This document shows positions 40,871 through 51,102 of a stretch of DNA of 64,000 bases, piece after piece. This DNA is from Chloroflexota bacterium. GTDB lineage: Bacteria > Chloroflexota > Anaerolineae > Promineifilales > Promineifilaceae. Location of the stretch: NCBI GenBank assembly GCA_017993775.1, contig JAGOMA010000017.1, positions 1 through 64,000 on the forward strand. Reading direction: 5' to 3'. The notes below the pieces were generated by a model that was not told the origin of the DNA, ran no database searches, and saw only the letters and a list, made by a program, of their open reading frames with translations. The translations under genes and the position numbers were made by a program. Within the stretch, counting starts at the first letter, position 1, and each line of letters opens with the position of its first letter.

Positions 40871-41167
40871 GTGTCCCGAAAAACAGATATAAACCAAACG
40901 ATAGTTATGGCCAATCTGGTTGGTCAGGTTGGTTGTGTAACCGGACTGGTTGCCCTTGTGATCATTGGTATTTCTTTTGGTCTTGGGCAGTTCCTGGATA
41001 ATTATTTGGGAACCCGGGGAATTTTCACTGTCGTTTTTATGTTGGGCAGTTTTCCGGTTACGCTGTTTGCAATGGTTCGCCTGAGTTTGATGATGGTGGC
41101 TAGAGCGCAAGCCCGTGTGGCCGAGATGGATACAAAAGACACCCAAGAAAATAACGAAACGACATAA
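40871..41167 (+). CDS. atpI: ATP synthase protein I-like (AtpI/AtpZ type)
   Basis: The 98-residue protein has two membrane helices separated by a short loop ('LDNYLGTRGIF') and a hydrophilic C-terminus, the layout of the AtpI/ATPase_gene1 family. Such proteins assist c-ring assembly or Mg handling. The start is GTG at 40871. It directly precedes atpB, the usual position. Confidence 0.75.
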   Translation: MSRKTDINQTIVMANLVGQVGCVTGLVALVIIGISFGLGQFLDNYLGTRGIFTVVFMLGSFPVTLFAMVRLSLMMVARAQARVAEMDTKDTQENNETT

Positions 41168-41189
41168 GAAAAAAAGAGGAAGCACACAG

Positions 41190-42299
41190 ATGAAAAAAAG
41201 ATACATCATAATGATTTGTATCGCTCTTATGCTCATATTAGGAACGTTTGTGCCGTGGACGAAGCCCGTGCGCCCCTTTATTCAGTTGCCTGGTGAAGTT
41301 TACCCTGGGACAGAAGGATTGCCGATTCTTGGGGGGCTTACCAACACGTTCATGTCCACTGTAGTTGCCTGGATAATGGTGACGGTGTTGGTACTAGCGT
41401 TAAAAGCACGCTCTCGCACGGCCGATGAAATCCCAACAGGCTTCTATAACTTCTTTGAGATGATTATTGAAGCAGCATATAATTTTGCTGAAGGGATTGC
41501 CGGGCCAAAGGTTAAAAATTTCTTCCCTTGGTTCATGACCTTTATCTTGATTATCTTAACCACCAACTGGATGGGTTTGATTCCGGGTTGGGACAGCATC
41601 GGGTTTTATGAATGGAAGCCTCACAAAGCAGCTCTTGATGCTGAAAAGCAGGCGGCCGCGAACGGCATTGAATTTACGGAAGAAGATTTCCTGAATGTAG
41701 AACATACTACCGATGCGGCTAATGTTGGTGATCTTCGCATTTCTCCGGCTTTCCTGATTCGCGCAGATGCCAATGCCAATCCAGATGCTCCTGTTGAAGA
41801 GGACAGCCACGAACGGAAAGTTGGGCTTAATCCAGAAGCCGCTGACTGGACAATTGTGCCGTTGCTGCGACCAGGGGCAACCGATTTGAATTTTACCCTT
41901 GCGTTTGCGCTTGTGGCCATGGTTATGGTTCAGTTTTATGGCTTCAAGTTTTTAGGCGGCAGGGGATACCTTTCTAAATTTTTCCCATTTGTGGGCAAGG
42001 GGTGGAGCGCAGAGGTTTCAAAGAACCCCATTAAGGCTATTGATCCGGCCGTGGGCATTCTGGAACTCATCAGTGAGATTTCAAAAATCATCTCATTTGC
42101 CTTCCGTCTTTTGGGTAATATTTTTGCTGGTATGGTGCTGCTGTTTGTAATGGCTTACCTGTTGCCGGTAATTAATGTGGTCTTTTTTGGCCTTGAGTTT
42201 TTCGTTGGGCTGATTCAGGCGCTTGTATTTGCGCTGTTAATGTTGATATTCATGGTGAGCGCTACAGAGAGCCACCATGGTGATGAAGAACATCACTAA
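41190..42299 (+). CDS. atpB: F0F1 ATP synthase subunit a, with a large insertion
   Basis: The 369-residue protein is subunit a of F0: 'NWMGLIPG', 'TDLNFTLAFALVAM', and the essential Arg306 in 'SFAFRLLGNIFAGMVLL'. Compared with the usual 230-280 residues it has an extra segment of about 90 residues (roughly 134-226), rich in Ala, Asp, Glu and Asn, in the loop between 'GLIPG' and 'TDLNFTLA', probably exposed at the membrane surface. The C-terminus is His/Glu-rich. I chose ATG 41190, which has AGAGGA upstream. Confidence 0.94.
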   Translation: MKKRYIIMICIALMLILGTFVPWTKPVRPFIQLPGEVYPGTEGLPILGGLTNTFMSTVVAWIMVTVLVLALKARSRTADEIPTGFYNFFEMIIEAAYNFAEGIAGPKVKNFFPWFMTFILIILTTNWMGLIPGWDSIGFYEWKPHKAALDAEKQAAANGIEFTEEDFLNVEHTTDAANVGDLRISPAFLIRADANANPDAPVEEDSHERKVGLNPEAADWTIVPLLRPGATDLNFTLAFALVAMVMVQFYGFKFLGGRGYLSKFFPFVGKGWSAEVSKNPIKAIDPAVGILELISEISKIISFAFRLLGNIFAGMVLLFVMAYLLPVINVVFFGLEFFVGLIQALVFALLMLIFMVSATESHHGDEEHH

Positions 42300-42339: not shown

Positions 42340-42588
42340 ATGGATGAACTAGCTGCTTTGGCATTGGCTAACGGTTTGAAAGCAATTGGTGCAGGTTTGG
42401 CCATGACTGGTGCGATTGGCGCTGGCGCTGGTATCGGTATTTTGGTGAATGGTGCGGTGCAGGGTATTGCTCGCAATCCTGATGCCAGTGGGAATATCCA
42501 GACAAACATGATTTTGGGTATCGCTTTCGCCGAAGCCGTTGCTATTTATGCGTTGGTGGTAGCCCTCATCATTCTGTTCGTGGTTTAG
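42340..42588 (+). CDS. atpE: F0F1 ATP synthase subunit c
   Basis: The 82-residue protein is a two-helix c subunit with Gly/Ala repeats 'GAIGAGAGIGILVNG', the polar loop 'QGIARNPDASGNIQ', and the ion-binding Glu in 'GIAFAEAVAIYALVVAL'. The residues after the Glu (A-V, not S-T) and the lack of a Gln in helix 1 point to proton rather than sodium coupling. GGAGG lies upstream of ATG 42340. Confidence 0.96.
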   Translation: MDELAALALANGLKAIGAGLAMTGAIGAGAGIGILVNGAVQGIARNPDASGNIQTNMILGIAFAEAVAIYALVVALIILFVV

Positions 42589-42639: not shown

Positions 42640-43344
42640 ATGGAAGCATTAGGTATAAATATTGGCTATCTCATCATGCAGATTTTGGGCATCACGGTCC
42701 TATTGCTGCTATTGAAGGGTTTGGCTTTTAGTCCAATTTTACGTGTTTTAGACGAACGTAAAGCTCGGATCGCCAAAGGGCTCGAAGATGCCCGTCAGGC
42801 TTCGATTGCTCGCGATAACGCCGATGCAGAAGCAAAGAAAATTTTGGATGCGGCGCGCGCTGAAGCGGCCAAGATACGTTCGGACGCAGCTGTCCAGGCT
42901 GAAGAAACCGCCAGCGGGATTTTGGCGAAGGCGAACGATGATGCCAAGGGTGTTTTAGTGGCTGCACGGGAAGATGCTGAGACGGAGCGAGATCGTATTT
43001 TGGCGGATTTGCGTGGGCAGGTTGCTGCGATTGCCATTGCGGCCGCAAATAAAATTGTTGGCGGTACTCTGGATGATGCGCGTCAACGGGCTTTAATTGC
43101 AGATTTCTTTGCTAAGGTTCCGGCCAGCGTCTCGTCAATGAGCGGAGATAAGGCTGTAATCACCAGCGCGTTACCTTTGACTGATGAAGAGAAGAAAAGC
43201 GCGAAAGCAGCACTCAAAGCGACTGACGTTGTTTTTAACGTAAATCCTGGCATTTTAGGCGGTCTGATTGTCCGCGTGGGAGATCAGGTTGTTGATGACA
43301 GTGTTGCTGGTCAGATGAATGCACTGCGGGATTCGTTAAAATAG
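42640..43344 (+). CDS. atpF: ATP synthase subunit b fused to the C-terminal domain of subunit delta
   Basis: The 234-residue protein starts as a normal subunit b: one membrane helix (about 8-28), then a long Ala/Glu/Arg coiled coil to about residue 150. The last 65 residues match the delta (OSCP) C-terminal domain: 'VITSALPLTDEEKKSAKAAL', 'NPGILGGLIVRVGDQVVDDSV' in parts and 'LRDSLK'. The delta N-terminal helical bundle, which grips F1 alpha, is missing. No atpH, A, G, D or C follows; a terminator does. Fusions of b with complete delta occur in actinobacteria, but this half-delta form is not one I know. Confidence 0.88.
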   Translation: MEALGINIGYLIMQILGITVLLLLLKGLAFSPILRVLDERKARIAKGLEDARQASIARDNADAEAKKILDAARAEAAKIRSDAAVQAEETASGILAKANDDAKGVLVAAREDAETERDRILADLRGQVAAIAIAAANKIVGGTLDDARQRALIADFFAKVPASVSSMSGDKAVITSALPLTDEEKKSAKAALKATDVVFNVNPGILGGLIVRVGDQVVDDSVAGQMNALRDSLK

Positions 43345-43433: not shown

Positions 43434-43470
43434 AAAAAGGCCAGGGATAAAGCCGACCCTGGCCTTTTTT
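43434..43470 (+). terminator. Rho-independent terminator of the nuo-atp cluster
   Basis: AAAAAGGCCAGGG (43434-43446) pairs with CCCTGGCCTTTTT, ending in a T-run at 43470. It closes the F0 gene group, showing that no F1 genes follow. Confidence 0.9.
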
Positions 43471-45067: not shown

Positions 45068-45529
45068 TTAGACGGTTACGAGAGAATAAATGCAGTCGGC
45101 GATTCCCTGTACAACTTCTTTCACGGCCTGTTGGGCAACGGCCGTTAACGGCTCATCAAGACGCGTATTTTGTGGCTCAATTCCAATCAATGCCACTTCA
45201 CAGCCCAATTCAGTGGTCAGATAACGTCCCAGCATATACAACGGCATTGTGTGGCTGGAGGCGCTCAGCCCAGACGTTTCTTCCCAAGGTACCCAGCAAA
45301 TATCGCCAGGCTCTTTACCCATCAAAGCCATATCCACCAGCAGAACCACATCCGGACCAAAACGCCGAATCCGCCCTGTGTGGTTTTCGGGCGCATTGCC
45401 TCCTTCCAGAACGAGCACCTGGGAAGAGACTGCGGTCGGAAGCAGCAAGTTTAACTGCCGGGCGGCAATGATGCCGGCGGCGTCATCGCCATGCATCTCA
45501 TTGCCAACGCCAACAACCACCAACCGCAC
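45068..45529 (-). CDS. Hydrogenase maturation protease (HycI/HyaD, peptidase M52)
   Basis: The protein has the M52 features 'VVVGVGNEMHGDDAAGIIAA' in its first 25 residues with the nickel-binding acidic residue, a second Asp in 'LLVDMALMG', and His in 'SSHTMPLYMLG'. It trims the C-terminal tail of a [NiFe] hydrogenase large subunit after nickel insertion. A GTG at 45529, 16 bp after the ferredoxin stop, gives 153 residues, the usual length; the longer frame to 45670 would overlap the ferredoxin gene. Its substrate is surely the large subunit encoded in this operon. Confidence 0.88.
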   Translation of the reverse strand: MRLVVVGVGNEMHGDDAAGIIAARQLNLLLPTAVSSQVLVLEGGNAPENHTGRIRRFGPDVVLLVDMALMGKEPGDICWVPWEETSGLSASSHTMPLYMLGRYLTTELGCEVALIGIEPQNTRLDEPLTAVAQQAVKEVVQGIADCIYSLVTV

Positions 45530-45545
45530 AGGTTTACCCCGGTGA

Positions 45546-45968
45546 TTAGCTTGCTGGCGTCGTAATGTTTGCGTCAGCAAACTTGGCCATAAATTCTCGT
45601 AGATCATTTTCTGTGCCATAGGTGACGGTAAATGGCGTTTTATCCGTCGCCGCCAATTCCCACTCTTCATCTGACATTTCTATGCAGCTAAAACGGCAGC
45701 TTTCCACACACTGGGCGCAGTATGTGCAGCGATCCATGTGATATTTCATCACAAATCGCTTTTCTTTTTTATCGACGGTAATAATTTCAATCGCATTAGC
45801 CGGACAATCTTTGTTGCACAAGGCGCATCCTGTACACTTTTCGGGATTCCAATGCAATTTTCCACGTAAGCGAACAGGTGCGTCCAGCCGTTCAAAAGGA
45901 TATTTTTGGGTGATGGGCCGCTGCCAGATTGACTGCCAGACATCGCCTAACATTGTCGCGATTTTCAT
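45546..45968 (-). CDS. Group 4 hydrogenase ferredoxin-like subunit (NuoI/HycF/MbhN type)
   Basis: The 140-residue protein has two [4Fe-4S] motifs: Cys45, 48, 51, 55 in 'CTGCALCNKDCP' and Cys81, 84, 87, 91 in 'CTYCAQCVESC'. This matches NuoI and the MbhN/HycF subunits, which pass electrons from ferredoxin to the small subunit. The N-terminal 'FERLDAPVRLRGKL' is typical. It lies between the NuoH-like gene and the maturation protease. Confidence 0.92.
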   Translation of the reverse strand: MKIATMLGDVWQSIWQRPITQKYPFERLDAPVRLRGKLHWNPEKCTGCALCNKDCPANAIEIITVDKKEKRFVMKYHMDRCTYCAQCVESCRFSCIEMSDEEWELAATDKTPFTVTYGTENDLREFMAKFADANITTPAS

Positions 45969-45980
45969 AATGACTCCACG

Positions 45981-46901
45981 TTACACGAGTTGAAGCACAT
46001 AAAGGATCAGCCACTGAGCCAGAACCAGCACAGCGCCGTACCGCCACCACATGCCAACTGTCTGGTCTATTCGGAGACGGGTCATGAGTGATTGTAATCC
46101 AGCCAGAATCACCAAGATGCCTACCGTCTTAAGTAAAAAATAGATTGGGTTCCCCAGGCCACCGAGATAAAACGCAGTGATCAGAGTCAGACCGATGACC
46201 AATTCGACGCCCTTGCCCAGATGGAAAATCGCCAGCCCACGGCCGCTGTACTCGGTGAGTGCGCCGGCGACAATTTCGGTTTCTGCTTCAGGAGAATCGA
46301 AGGGTGGTAGCTCCAATTTGCCCATTAAGCCGATAAGCGCCACGATAAAACCGATGGGTTGAGTTATCAAGAACCAGGTGTGTGTTTGTGCATATTGATT
46401 GATGTCATGGATCTGCCAGCTTCGGGCGATCATTGCCGGACCTAACAAGGCCAACAGAAAGGGGGCTTCATAGGCAAATAGCTGGGTCAGTCCTCGGGTG
46501 GCCCCAACCAACGAGAACCGATCAGGCGTGTGCGCGCCGGCCAGACCGGTGCATAGCGTGAGCAAACTGAGCATGTAGATGGTGACGATCAGGTCTCCAG
46601 GGAAGCTGAAAGACGGCCGTATCCCGGCCATCGGCACATACAAAGCGGCTGTCAGCGCCCCTGCCAGGGCCACGAGCGGCAGCCCAATAAATAACACCGG
46701 GTTAACGCCGGTTGGCACCACTTCTTCTTTGGCCAACAGTTTCAGCGTATCGGCAAACGGTTGAAACCAACGCGGTCCAATCCGGTTTTGCAAACGGGCG
46801 ATTATTTTACGGTCGATCCATTCATAAAACAGTCCCAGAAAAACGACAAATAAACCGCCTGGGAAAAATAGTAGAGAGGTGATGCTTAAGACGCCTTCCA
46901 T
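45981..46901 (-). CDS. Group 4 hydrogenase NuoH-like membrane subunit (HycD/MbhM type)
   Basis: The 306-residue protein has about eight helices and the NuoH loops 'DRKIIARLQNRIGPRWFQP', 'DTLKLLAKEEVVP', 'LTQLFAYEAPFLLALLGP' and 'PPFDSPEAETEIVAGALTEYSG' in parts. It anchors the catalytic subunits to the membrane. I chose ATG 46901, which overlaps nothing and follows the large-subunit stop closely, with AAAGG upstream. A longer frame to 46961 would run into that gene. Confidence 0.93.
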   Translation of the reverse strand: MEGVLSITSLLFFPGGLFVVFLGLFYEWIDRKIIARLQNRIGPRWFQPFADTLKLLAKEEVVPTGVNPVLFIGLPLVALAGALTAALYVPMAGIRPSFSFPGDLIVTIYMLSLLTLCTGLAGAHTPDRFSLVGATRGLTQLFAYEAPFLLALLGPAMIARSWQIHDINQYAQTHTWFLITQPIGFIVALIGLMGKLELPPFDSPEAETEIVAGALTEYSGRGLAIFHLGKGVELVIGLTLITAFYLGGLGNPIYFLLKTVGILVILAGLQSLMTRLRIDQTVGMWWRYGAVLVLAQWLILYVLQLV

Positions 46902-46903
46902 AG

Positions 46904-48103
46904 TTACACCTTTCTCGCGTAGTAATCGATGCCAAATTGGCGCAAGCGTTCCCAGGTCCAACGGCCGTTGCCCTCATCCCCTGAAATCGTCACACCGCGA
47001 TCATTGCATGAAAAGCACGGGTCAATCCCCACCAGCAGCATAGGCACATCAGCCAGATGGTGGCCTATCGAAAGGCTCAACACCGAAGCCATGTTGCACA
47101 ATGTTGGCGTGCGCACTTTCAGCCGGTCTGGTTGTTCCCCGCCGGTGCTGCGAATGTAATAAAACACCTCGCCACGCGGCGCTTCCACTCGGCTGATCAC
47201 TTCACCCACTTTAATTTTTCGTGGGAACCGTTTCACCTGTAAATCGCCCGCCGGCAAGTTATCCAGAATTTCTCGAATCAATCGGAAGCTTTCAAACAAT
47301 TCTTTCAAACGTACCACAAACCGCGCTTCCAGGTCCCCGGCCGTTTCTACCACCATTTGCACCGGAAAATCGTCGTAGGCTGCATACGGGGCATCCACAC
47401 GGACGTCGCGGATAACTCCGGAAGCACGCGCCGTTGGCCCAACAATCCCCAAACGCTGCGCATCCCGCAGTCGCGTTGTGCCGATGCCGCGTGTCCGCTG
47501 CAAAAACATACTGTCTGAGGTGGCAACGGTTAAATAATGCTTGGTACGCTCTTCTAAAAAGTCGATGCCGGTTAAAATGACTTTGGCCTGCTCTGGCGAG
47601 ACATCGAACTTAACCCCGCCCAGTACGTTAGCTGAATAATTCACGCGATTGCCGGTCAACGCTTCCAAAATGTCCATAATCGTTTCCCGGTCGCGCCAGG
47701 AATACATGAACAATGTGTCGAAGCCTGCTTCGTGTGCGGCAACGCCGAACCACAAAAGATGGCTGTGAACCCGCTCCAATTCAGCCACGAGTACACGAAT
47801 GGCCTGAGCGCGGCGTGGAACGTCAACTTCGGCCAATTTTTCGACGCCTAATGAATAGGTAAGGGCGTGAATGTGTGAACAGATGCCGCAAATGCGCTCG
47901 ACCAGGTAGAGATTTTGCGTCCAATTGCGCGCTTCGGCGGCTTTTTCGATGCCTCGGTGCACATAACCCAGGCGCACGGTGGCGTCGGTGACAATTTCGC
48001 CATCGACGGCGAATTCGAAATGTCCCGGCTCTTTGAGGGCCGGATGCTGTGGGCCGATTGGAACAATAAATTTTTCTTTTGTAGGCATGGTAATAGTGGT
48101 CAT
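46904..48103 (-). CDS. [NiFe] hydrogenase group 4 large (catalytic) subunit
   Basis: The 399-residue protein is NuoD-like but has both nickel-binding Cys pairs: Cys72 and Cys75 in 'ERICGICSHIHAL', and Cys363 and Cys366 in 'GIDPCFSCNDR'. True NuoD lacks these. A 30-residue tail follows Arg369, the expected cleavage point of the maturation protease encoded in the operon. It should bind Ni-Fe(CN)2CO and reduce protons or oxidise H2. The motif 'DPCFSCNDR' is close to E. coli HycE. The ATG is preceded by a short gap after the NuoC-like gene. Confidence 0.95.
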   Translation of the reverse strand: MTTITMPTKEKFIVPIGPQHPALKEPGHFEFAVDGEIVTDATVRLGYVHRGIEKAAEARNWTQNLYLVERICGICSHIHALTYSLGVEKLAEVDVPRRAQAIRVLVAELERVHSHLLWFGVAAHEAGFDTLFMYSWRDRETIMDILEALTGNRVNYSANVLGGVKFDVSPEQAKVILTGIDFLEERTKHYLTVATSDSMFLQRTRGIGTTRLRDAQRLGIVGPTARASGVIRDVRVDAPYAAYDDFPVQMVVETAGDLEARFVVRLKELFESFRLIREILDNLPAGDLQVKRFPRKIKVGEVISRVEAPRGEVFYYIRSTGGEQPDRLKVRTPTLCNMASVLSLSIGHHLADVPMLLVGIDPCFSCNDRGVTISGDEGNGRWTWERLRQFGIDYYARKV

Positions 48104-48124
48104 GGTTTATTTCCTGCTGGCCTG

Positions 48125-48709
48125 TTAGGTTGCCGTGTGTTGGTTTTCTGAGTTGAATTCTTTGCGCAGAGGGTAGGTGTCTGCTGGCCAATCGTCGGGT
48201 AAAAAGAGATGGTCGGTATTGGGTGTGTTCAGGATGGTGATGCCCAGCATTTCAACCAGTTCGCGTTCAAAAAAGCTGGCGGAGGGGATGAGGGGGCAAA
48301 TGCTGGGGATAACGGCCGTTTCCCTTTTCACCCGTACCGACAGCGTTACCACGGCCGCGCCCTCGGCAAAATGGTAAAGAATCTCAATTTCGCCTGCTTC
48401 CGGCCCTAAATCCAAACCGGTGATGGTAATCAGGTAACCCCAATCGCCATCTAACAAAGTTTGCACAACTTCCAGAAGCTCGTCTGGATGAACAGAAATG
48501 TCTAATACGTCAGGACGGCCGTTTCCCGTTAACATAATGCGTCTTTTGGCATACGGGAAAATGAGCGGGTTTTCGCCGCTAACCAATGTTTTTTCACTTG
48601 GCTGTGGTTTGTTCAGCTTCTCTCGCCAGGTTTCCAGCAATTGTTCCACACGGTTTAATGCCTGTTCGGCTTGCGATTGCCCGGATTTGTCCTTAAATTC
48701 TGGCAGCAT
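48125..48709 (-). CDS. Group 4 hydrogenase NuoC-like subunit (MbhK/HycE N-terminal type)
   Basis: The 194-residue protein has the 30-kDa-subunit features 'LITITGLDLG', 'GEIEILYHFAEG', 'LSVRVKRETAVIPSICPLIPSASFFERELVEMLGI' in parts and 'LFLPDDWPADTYPLRKEF'. In E. coli HycE this is fused to the large subunit; here it is separate. An N-terminal extension of about 60 charged residues is not typical. Its ATG lies inside the end of the small-subunit gene (17-bp overlap) with GAGGAG upstream. Confidence 0.9.
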   Translation of the reverse strand: MLPEFKDKSGQSQAEQALNRVEQLLETWREKLNKPQPSEKTLVSGENPLIFPYAKRRIMLTGNGRPDVLDISVHPDELLEVVQTLLDGDWGYLITITGLDLGPEAGEIEILYHFAEGAAVVTLSVRVKRETAVIPSICPLIPSASFFERELVEMLGITILNTPNTDHLFLPDDWPADTYPLRKEFNSENQHTAT

Positions 48710-49220
48710 CGTAAATCTCCTCGGTTAACTGAGTAATGGCTGGTGGTTCAACCGGCGCGCCCTGTTGAATGGCGGTCAACAATTTCACCAGGCCGTCAAT
48801 AATCGCTTCCGGTCGCGGCGGGCAGCCCGGCACATACGCATCCACCGGAATCACTTCGTCGATGTGGCCAACTACGTTGTAACAGCCCTGGAAAACGCCG
48901 CCGGAAATTGCGCAAGAGCCTACCGCCACCACAAATTTCGGGTCAGGCATCTGCTCGTAAATTCGCAGCAAACGGTCCCGCGACTGGCGGGTGACCGGAC
49001 CGGTGCAAATCAGCACATCGGCGTGGCGAGGGCTGCCTTGCAGCTTCACGCCAAACCGCTCGGCGTCATACCGCGGTGTTAGCGTCGCCAAAATCTCGAT
49101 GTCGCAGCCGTTACACGAGCCGCTGTTGTAATGAATTAACCAGGGCGAGTTAATCCGTGCCCATTTTTTTACCTTCAGCAGCACATTGTTCCACTCGGTG
49201 GTCAAACTAAAATTTGTCAT
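48693..49220 (-). CDS. [NiFe] hydrogenase group 4 small subunit (NuoB/HycG/MbhJ type)
   Basis: The 175-residue protein has the four Cys ligands of the proximal [4Fe-4S] cluster: Cys36 and Cys39 in 'GSCNGCDIE', Cys103 in 'VGSCAISGG' and Cys133 in 'PGCPPRPE'. It is the electron-transfer partner of the large subunit. It starts 6 bp after the preceding membrane-subunit gene. Confidence 0.95.
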   Translation of the reverse strand: MTNFSLTTEWNNVLLKVKKWARINSPWLIHYNSGSCNGCDIEILATLTPRYDAERFGVKLQGSPRHADVLICTGPVTRQSRDRLLRIYEQMPDPKFVVAVGSCAISGGVFQGCYNVVGHIDEVIPVDAYVPGCPPRPEAIIDGLVKLLTAIQQGAPVEPPAITQLTEEIYDAARI

Positions 49221-49226
49221 GGTTTC

Positions 49227-49538
49227 TTACCCTAAAATCAAGGCCATCAGCGCTAAAATCAGCCCGGCCAGATACAAAGCGGCGATGGGAGAGGCTGTGC
49301 TGCTGCCTAACATCAGCACACCCAAATGTAGGATGGCAAAAAACAGGGCAATCACAAAAAACGGCCGGTACCCTGGCAGTCCAATTTGAAATGGCAGCGA
49401 TTCGCCGCCGGTATAAGCACTCGATTTATTGGCAGAAGGGTTGGCTGGCCCGGCCAACAGCTTGCCAAAGCCAGATAAAATGCCCACCAGAATAATGTAG
49501 AGCACAAAAGCAATCGGTGGAATTAGCAGAACACTCAT
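49227..49538 (-). CDS. Small membrane subunit in the MbhI/NuoA position
   Basis: The 103-residue protein has three hydrophobic helices (about 4-27, 57-77, 80-101) and a Gly/Ser/Glu loop 'SSAYTGGESLPFQ' between the first two, similar in position to the 'YECG' loop of NuoA. In archaeal MBH operons the gene between the MrpD-like and small subunits is mbhI. It most likely fills the same structural role, but sequence identity to either is weak. Confidence 0.65.
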   Translation of the reverse strand: MSVLLIPPIAFVLYIILVGILSGFGKLLAGPANPSANKSSAYTGGESLPFQIGLPGYRPFFVIALFFAILHLGVLMLGSSTASPIAALYLAGLILALMALILG

Positions 49539-49572
49539 TCAATCACTCCTATAACCGACCCGCTTCGAGCGG

Positions 49573-51102
49573 TTATCCGCCAAAAGCGGCCATCAGGGCT
49601 GTCCCGGCTGGTTGCACAATGCCATTTACCAGACTGGGCCAGAAACCAACAATCAATATGGCTGCCGCCAGTAGAACCAGAGGGATATTCATCATGGCTG
49701 GCACAGATTGGCCGGACAGAACGGCCGTTGACGGCCGTTTCCGGTACACCGCGTTCACCATTGGTGCATAATACGCCAGCGACAGCACACTGTTCAAAGC
49801 CACAAAAGTAATGACTCCAACCATTATCAAACTGCGCGTCTCAAACCCGGCCACCAAGATTTGCCATTTGGACATGAAGCCTACCAGCGGCGGCAGCCCG
49901 CCCAGCCCCAGCAGCGCAATGCTAAACACCAGCGCCACCAGAGGATACTTTTGCGAAGCTCCGGCCAGATCGGCAATCAGCAGCGGGTCGTGCTCGCCGC
50001 GCGCCGTATGCATCACATACAACAGCGCACCGGCAGAAAGAAAGGCCAATCCCTTCATCATGGTGTGGCTCAGCAGGTGGAAAAAACTGCCTTCCGCGCC
50101 CGCTGCCTCGCCAAAATAGATGGCAATACCCAAACCAATCAGCATATAACCCACATGGGCAATGCTGGAAAAAGCCAGCAGCCGCTTTACTTGCTGCTGC
50201 CGCAGCGCCAGCAAGTTGCCAACTACCATATTCAACACGCCAAAAATCATGAGCAAGATGCCCCAGGTTGTTGTGGTTCCGGCCAGCGGGGCCAGCGCTC
50301 TCAGCAGGGCAATCAGACCTGCTTCGATAACCACGCCGGATAACATGGCGCTGATGCCGCTGGGCGCTTGCGAATGAGCGTCTGGCAGCCAGGTATGCAT
50401 GGGCACAATGGCGATTTTTACGCCAAAACCAACGATAAACAGCCCACCGGCCGCCAGCAGCACCCATGAATCGGGCTGTCCGGCTGCGGCAGCCTGGATT
50501 TGCACAATATCCAGCGTGCCGGTTTGCGCCAGCACCAGCGCTATGCCCATCAACACAAACACCGAACCGACCGCACTTTGCACCAGATATTTGATGCCTG
50601 CTTCCAGAGAGGCGGCCTGATCGCGGTAAAAAGCAACCAACAAATAGGAGGTGATGGCCATGGCCTCGAACCACAGCCAGAGGTTAAAGAGGTCGGCGGC
50701 GCAGCCCAATCCCACCATCACGCCGGATATGGCCACCAGCATGGCGTAATATTTGGATTCGCCAAGCTCGCCGTGCATGTAAGTGTTGGAGTAAATGACG
50801 ACCAGCGTGGAGAGGGCTAGCACGGCCGTTGCCAGCAGCAAGCTCAATCCATCCAGCCGCAGCGTAATCGTGCCCAAAGTATAACTGAGTGGGCCACTGG
50901 CCTTAAATGCTTGCCACGTCCAGGCGAAGGGCAGCCACGTACTGAGAATGGCTATCAACGCTACCCAACGGGCAACGGCCGTGTCTGTAGCCATCCGCCG
51001 CCGCGCCAGACGCCCTATCAAATACACCACCGGCGACCATAACAACGGCAGCCAGATCAGCCACAAAAATACGGGGAGATTTGTCAATGCGTTCATATCC
51101 AT
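49573..51102 (-). CDS. Hydrogenase antiporter-like subunit (NuoN/MrpD/MbhH type)
   Basis: The 509-residue membrane protein has about fourteen helices. It shows 'LWLWFEAMAITSYLLVAFY' (TM5 Glu), 'FGVKIAIVPMHTWLPDAHSQAPSGISAMLSGVVIEAGLIAL' in parts (TM7 Lys, His), and 'FSSIAHVGYMLIGLG'. Such subunits move protons or sodium ions using hydrogenase energy. It lies in the position of MbhH, before the small subunit gene. Confidence 0.9.
   Translation of the reverse strand: MDMNALTNLPVFLWLIWLPLLWSPVVYLIGRLARRRMATDTAVARWVALIAILSTWLPFAWTWQAFKASGPLSYTLGTITLRLDGLSLLLATAVLALSTLVVIYSNTYMHGELGESKYYAMLVAISGVMVGLGCAADLFNLWLWFEAMAITSYLLVAFYRDQAASLEAGIKYLVQSAVGSVFVLMGIALVLAQTGTLDIVQIQAAAAGQPDSWVLLAAGGLFIVGFGVKIAIVPMHTWLPDAHSQAPSGISAMLSGVVIEAGLIALLRALAPLAGTTTTWGILLMIFGVLNMVVGNLLALRQQQVKRLLAFSSIAHVGYMLIGLGIAIYFGEAAGAEGSFFHLLSHTMMKGLAFLSAGALLYVMHTARGEHDPLLIADLAGASQKYPLVALVFSIALLGLGGLPPLVGFMSKWQILVAGFETRSLIMVGVITFVALNSVLSLAYYAPMVNAVYRKRPSTAVLSGQSVPAMMNIPLVLLAAAILIVGFWPSLVNGIVQPAGTALMAAFGG

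Follow-up and report, generated by a model that had tools for sequence, protein, structure and literature searches.

The last gene of the Fo operon in the window (the whole stretch of 64,000 nucleotides analysed here) encodes subunit b of an F-type ATP synthase fused to only the C-terminal domain (CTD) of delta, and the N-terminal domain (NTD) of delta, the bundle that binds the crown of F1, was found nowhere else in the genome. We consider it likely that this fusion serves as the stator subunit of a split-operon F-type H+ ATP synthase, the only rotary ATPase found in the genome, and that it is attached to F1 through its delta CTD. The number of stalks in F-type enzymes, and hence of protons paid per ATP, has long been taken as fixed, at one stalk. 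The delta NTD was identified in 2025 as the limiter to one stalk. Many members of a large bacterial class, the Anaerolineae, lack it in their F-type enzyme, and those with a fused delta CTD make good candidates for naturally multi-stalk ATP synthases.

Table 1. The Fo operon of the window and its features.
Feature	Position	Strand	Details and evidence
Small AtpZ/AtpI-like membrane protein, head of the Fo operon	40871..41167	+	PF09527, 24.8 bits, just below the 26.6 cut-off
Subunit a, with large hydrophilic insert	41187..42299	+	370 aa from ATG 41187; PF00119
Subunit c	42340..42588	+	82 aa; PF00137
b-deltaCTD fusion gene	42640..43344	+	234 aa, ATG 42640 to stop 43344
Subunit b portion, residues 1–160, with the membrane anchor and the long helix of the stalk	42640..43119	+	ATP-synt_B, helices, PDB match
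Delta C-terminal domain without delta N-terminal domain, residues 168–234	43141..43341	+	OSCP profile and structure match
Intrinsic-terminator-like stem with T tail, 3' of the fusion gene	43436..43470	+	Sequence

The Fo operon runs in the order atpZ/I-like, a, c and b/deltaCTD (Table 1). The fusion protein matched the Pfam family ATP-synt_B at residues 11–140 (E = 3.7e-20; 72.8 bits, cut-off 28) and the OSCP/delta family at residues 171–233 (E = 1.5e-12; 48.4 bits, cut-off 22.3), the latter alignment covering only positions 104–172 of the 172 in the profile. The best PDB matches to the b part and to subunit a were the corresponding chains of Chloroflexus aurantiacus (9itj_U, E = 6.6e-35, and 9itj_T, E = 9e-42, respectively). 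An AlphaFold model of the fusion protein made with 24 relatives (mean pLDDT 85; pTM 0.41, a value to be expected when a long helix stands alone) predicted a continuous helix at residues 8–143, a short helix at 146–158 and a small alpha/beta domain at 168–233, with strands at 168–176, 193–201, 209–213 and 216–219 and helices at 182–191 and 222–233. The small domain superimposed on the CTD of Chloroflexus delta (9itj_S; Z 8.7, 1.9 Å over 65 residues) and on that of E. coli delta (6oqr_W; Z 8.7, 1.6 Å), and the best full-length fold match of the chain was mycobacterial b-delta (Z 13.0), in which the missing domain corresponded to a gap. Pfam domain content and structural matches therefore agree with the preliminary description, which had read the gene as b joined to the C-terminal half of delta alone. 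That the tail is merely the end of a long b subunit was ruled out, with next to no doubt, by the significant delta match and the delta fold. Same-family relatives shared the length of 234 aa and the motifs of the CTD, which excludes a frameshift or assembly error; with conservation in 24 aligned relatives and in the 80 named loci described below, it is almost inconceivable that loss of the NTD is a sequencing or assembly artefact.

The arrangement of a long helix with a delta-CTD-like domain after it recurs, by profile and by fold, in A/V-ATPase subunit E and FliH, and the fusion matched 4dt0_A (E = 6.6e-13), yeast V-ATPase subunit E chains and the FliH structure 5b0o. However, subunit E lacks a membrane anchor and has G as its partner, and the V-type E model NF003049 scored 25.5 bits on the fusion against a cut-off of 225, the likeness being one of layout and fold. 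V/A enzymes have two or three stalks.

Across the whole genome (93% complete, 113 contigs), the fusion was the one OSCP match over the cut-off, with no further delta, and each of the 17 genomes tested, this one included, had a single PF00430 b gene over the cut-off and no second b. Thus the searches of the genome for a stand-alone delta or a second b returned neither, and with no separate full atpH and a tail that is a genuine delta CTD, the reading of the gene as a partial fusion stood. The preliminary description had also held that the crown-binding bundle was absent, which was borne out by the truncated OSCP alignment and by these searches, and had supposed that a separate protein might supply it. 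A profile built from 22 class-specific delta NTDs recovered the domain in all six held-out genomes with a full delta (E = 8e-22 to 3e-32), but in 10 NTD-less genomes, which comprised this genome (G000) and nine others and included several single-contig ones (G037, G054, G191 and G201), its matches went no lower than E = 0.0165 and fell within long unrelated frames; this result speaks against that supposition. A crown-binding protein of unrecognised kind might still replace the NTD, since the alpha N-terminal helix is kept despite the loss of its usual NTD partner; nevertheless, we consider this improbable in view of the empty search with a profile that works on controls, and of operons with a free delta CTD (below), which contain no additional gene between b and alpha.

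The F1 genes lie on a different contig (L038, 7016–11719) in the order alpha-gamma-beta-epsilon, followed by an mreB-like gene. Because the sole further PF00006 match in the genome looks like the transcription terminator Rho, the enzyme of the fusion is the only rotary ATPase found in the genome, and it is taken to be H+-coupled because no Na+ ligand pattern was seen, by eye, in its c subunit. N-ATPases, a side branch of the F-ATPases that works with Na+ or H+, have b ending in a delta CTD (TIGR03321) and no separate delta, as does the enzyme of the window, which lacks the separate delta/OSCP with N-terminal bundle that is typical of F-type enzymes and has only a CTD, fused to b. The N-type b of this class (L035) has the identical layout, ending in a delta CTD alone (OSCP positions 104–171 of 172). 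Furthermore, N-ATPases are described as having either no delta or one fused to b, and the Chloroflexota genus T78 is catalogued in ProAD with a single H+ N-type ATPase (PMC11738941). Nonetheless, alpha (TIGR00962, 757 bits, cut-off 484), beta (TIGR01039, 754 bits, cut-off 463), gamma (TIGR01146, 290 bits, cut-off 194) and epsilon (TIGR01216, 119 bits, cut-off 67) all exceeded their F-type cut-offs, whereas scores against the N-type (alt_F1F0) models were all below cut-off (alpha 570 against 750, beta 581 against 752, gamma 70 against 282 and b 46.9 against 224.7 bits). The gene order also differed from that of N-ATPases, beta-epsilon-X-X-a-c-b/delta-alpha-gamma (PMC11738941), as the Fo genes stop at the terminator-like stem and the F1 genes are on another contig. 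In the alpha tree, N-type and N-like alphas branched apart from all F-type alphas (support 100/99), with two of those labelled N (L147 and L148) scoring as divergent F/N intermediates and only L174 passing the N-type alpha cut-off among the scanned N-labelled alphas other than L175. In a CTD tree of 78 columns, which has low resolution and from which six sequences were dropped by motif cutting, three N-type CTDs likewise separated from the fused F-type CTDs (98/98). It is very unlikely, then, that the window encodes an N-ATPase: its enzyme is an ordinary F-type, which shares the N-type layout but differs in lineage. As an F-type enzyme can resemble an N-type one when no separate delta is recognisable in it, some catalogued H+ N-type entries of Chloroflexota may be mistyped F-type enzymes with b/deltaCTD.

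The trait is spread across the class, which the preliminary description had missed, together with the free 84-aa delta CTD and the role of the NTD as one-stalk limiter (PMC12229609). A delta-family match was present in 280 of the 297 Anaerolineae class genomes that were at least 90% complete; among the matches listed (to E ~1.6e-16), delta was full-length in about 104 class genomes and nearly all other class matches were to the delta CTD only, a count in which some CTD-only matches are N-type and a few alignments extend into the b coil. All 80 loci from named Anaerolineae genomes, one of them from the cultured isolate Thermanaerothrix daxensis, carried b/deltaCTD and looked alike, so that the same fusion is indeed found in relatives; a and c preceded the fusion wherever the contig extended far enough, and neither a full delta nor an alpha gene was found in the flanks (up to 9 kb). 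Among the matches listed, Chloroflexota outside the class had a full delta, save some families with a shortened one (for example L179–L181, from Chloroflexia-like genomes).

INTERMEDIATES. Relatives with a full delta have contiguous b, delta and alpha genes, and several families depart from this arrangement without fusion. In family f7, a normal 164-aa b precedes a free delta CTD of 84 aa, whose start overlaps the stop of b, and alpha comes next. The 84-aa form was seen at L134, L136 and L139 and is possibly the smallest natural delta. Families f31, f36 and f37 have free delta forms of 118–120 aa, and family f21 (L187, G046) has a normal b and a free 167-aa delta with an N-terminal part that could not be recognised as the usual bundle. 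Because free delta-CTD forms exist without fusion, NTD loss and fusion are separable. On the alpha tree, which has a weak backbone and labels G046 as fused though it belongs with the free-delta group, five changes were needed for NTD loss and three for fusion, and a single origin of fusion was not rejected (AU p = 0.081). This natural variation, from full delta through shortened or free CTD to fused CTD, and the cultured T. daxensis make the stalk rule testable.

In solved enzymes, one alpha N-terminal region binds the delta CTD and two bind the delta NTD on the three-fold axis (PMC12229609), an asymmetric contact of delta to all three alphas (PMC5214741). As the delta NTD is absent here, attachment of the outer stalk to F1 must differ, as had been proposed from the outset. 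The N-terminal pattern of alpha ([hydrophobic]..QI..F/Y) is kept alike in the full-delta, free-CTD and fused groups, and because this helix persists, F1 is probably held by the known contact between the alpha helix and the delta CTD, although retention of the helix could reflect another role. We propose that the delta CTD would cap the b dimer and grip one alpha N-terminal helix, which is the sole alpha contact of the CTD in canonical enzymes, and that both alpha contacts of the NTD, on the three-fold axis, would be lost. With nothing occupying that axis, the three alpha helices would become equivalent docking sites and the restriction to one stalk would be lifted.

A Bacillus PS3 F1Fo with the delta NTD deleted and the CTD fused to alpha formed as many as three stalks, had a subunits in equal number and reached an H+/ATP ratio of 5.8, leading to the conclusion that the NTD sets the one-stalk limit; the CTD had been joined to alpha to guard against weak binding (PMC12229609). 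The engineered enzyme (PDB 9jc1/9jc2) resembles the fusion in that the NTD is gone and the CTD is joined to a neighbouring subunit, but there the CTD is on alpha, one per alpha, whereas here it is on b, one per b. A delta-alpha fusion in Acidaminococcus fermentans is mentioned in the same source (PMC12229609). Mycobacterial b-delta (AtpFH) likewise has b and delta on one chain. It differs from the fusion in being ~445 aa long, in containing a whole delta and in having a separate short b as its partner; the fusion lacks the NTD and its genome has one b gene, so that there is neither a complete delta fused to b nor a second, separate b.

A nearer case is Chloroflexus aurantiacus, of the same phylum, which provides the closest solved a and b and, among solved stand-alone deltas, the best match through its delta CTD. 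Its F1Fo ATP synthase was reportedly the subject of a study by Zhang et al. in PNAS in 2025 (doi 10.1073/pnas.2425824122, cited in PMC12694454). For the PDB series 9itj, 18 entries give 36 a, 72 b and 180 c chains, and six entries give 12 delta and 18 alpha chains; per entry this corresponds to two a, four b, ten c, two delta and three alpha, a stoichiometry taken from PDB chain counts, and the same count for the E. coli control returned one a, two b and one delta. By these chain counts, a two-stalk Chloroflexus structure was deposited in 2025. Unlike the organism of the window, Chloroflexus belongs to a sister class (Chloroflexia) and has a separate 157-aa delta, which keeps a shortened N-terminal region, and no b fusion.

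The fusion shares with these multi-stalk enzymes a delta NTD that is removed or reduced. Because NTD deletion in PS3 and the chain counts in Chloroflexus both point the same way, a natural multi-stalk ATP synthase is, by analogy, plausible here and a serious possibility. Somewhat short of even confidence, we extend this to the class: most sampled Anaerolineae lineages may have two or three stalks, an equal number of a subunits and a raised H+/ATP ratio, with NTD loss acting as the genetic switch. If so, their enzymes could make ATP at low proton-motive force. The main rival is a single stalk with one a subunit, in which the two CTDs of a b/deltaCTD homodimer bind two of the three alpha helices. 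A single b gene implies two CTDs in every b dimer, an arrangement that is awkward for the proposed attachment in general and that mycobacteria avoid through their b/b-delta heterodimer. These two CTDs might also bind two alphas, and the kept alpha helix fits this geometry as well. On the other hand, the families with a normal b and a free 84-aa CTD, which are not forced into such pairing, have also lost the NTD, and we regard two-site binding by a single stalk as possible but doubtful as an explanation for the trait. In the simplest view, F1 would be held in these enzymes through the contact between alpha helix and delta CTD and nothing else.

Several further features of these loci were observed. 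In a large subset of fused lineages, alpha has a conserved insert of ~50 aa between HSRLLER and GGSLTALP, with a GVDGKxYxGxL motif (in this genome L038 7016–8692, residues about 311–364; also L119–L130), so that the loop between the two motifs measures 59–65 aa with the insert vs 12; the insert was absent from all full-delta relatives examined. Judging by the topology of the fold, the insert is expected on the exterior of F1, within possible reach of a stalk. The model of alpha with the insert was poor (mean pLDDT 52.7 from nine sequences; locally 60–85 in the insert region). The hydrophilic insert of subunit a falls at about residues 145–220, in a loop between membrane helices, and Chloroflexus a (312 aa) is likewise long at this site. 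Adjoining the Fo operon is a hydrogenase-type cluster (window 45068–51102, minus strand) of HycI-like maturation protease, ferredoxin-like, NuoH-, NuoD-, NuoC-, NuoB- and antiporter-like genes. The NuoD-like gene has CGIC and DPCFSC motifs and a NiFeSe_Hases match, and the gene content is suggestive of a group 4 [NiFe] hydrogenase.
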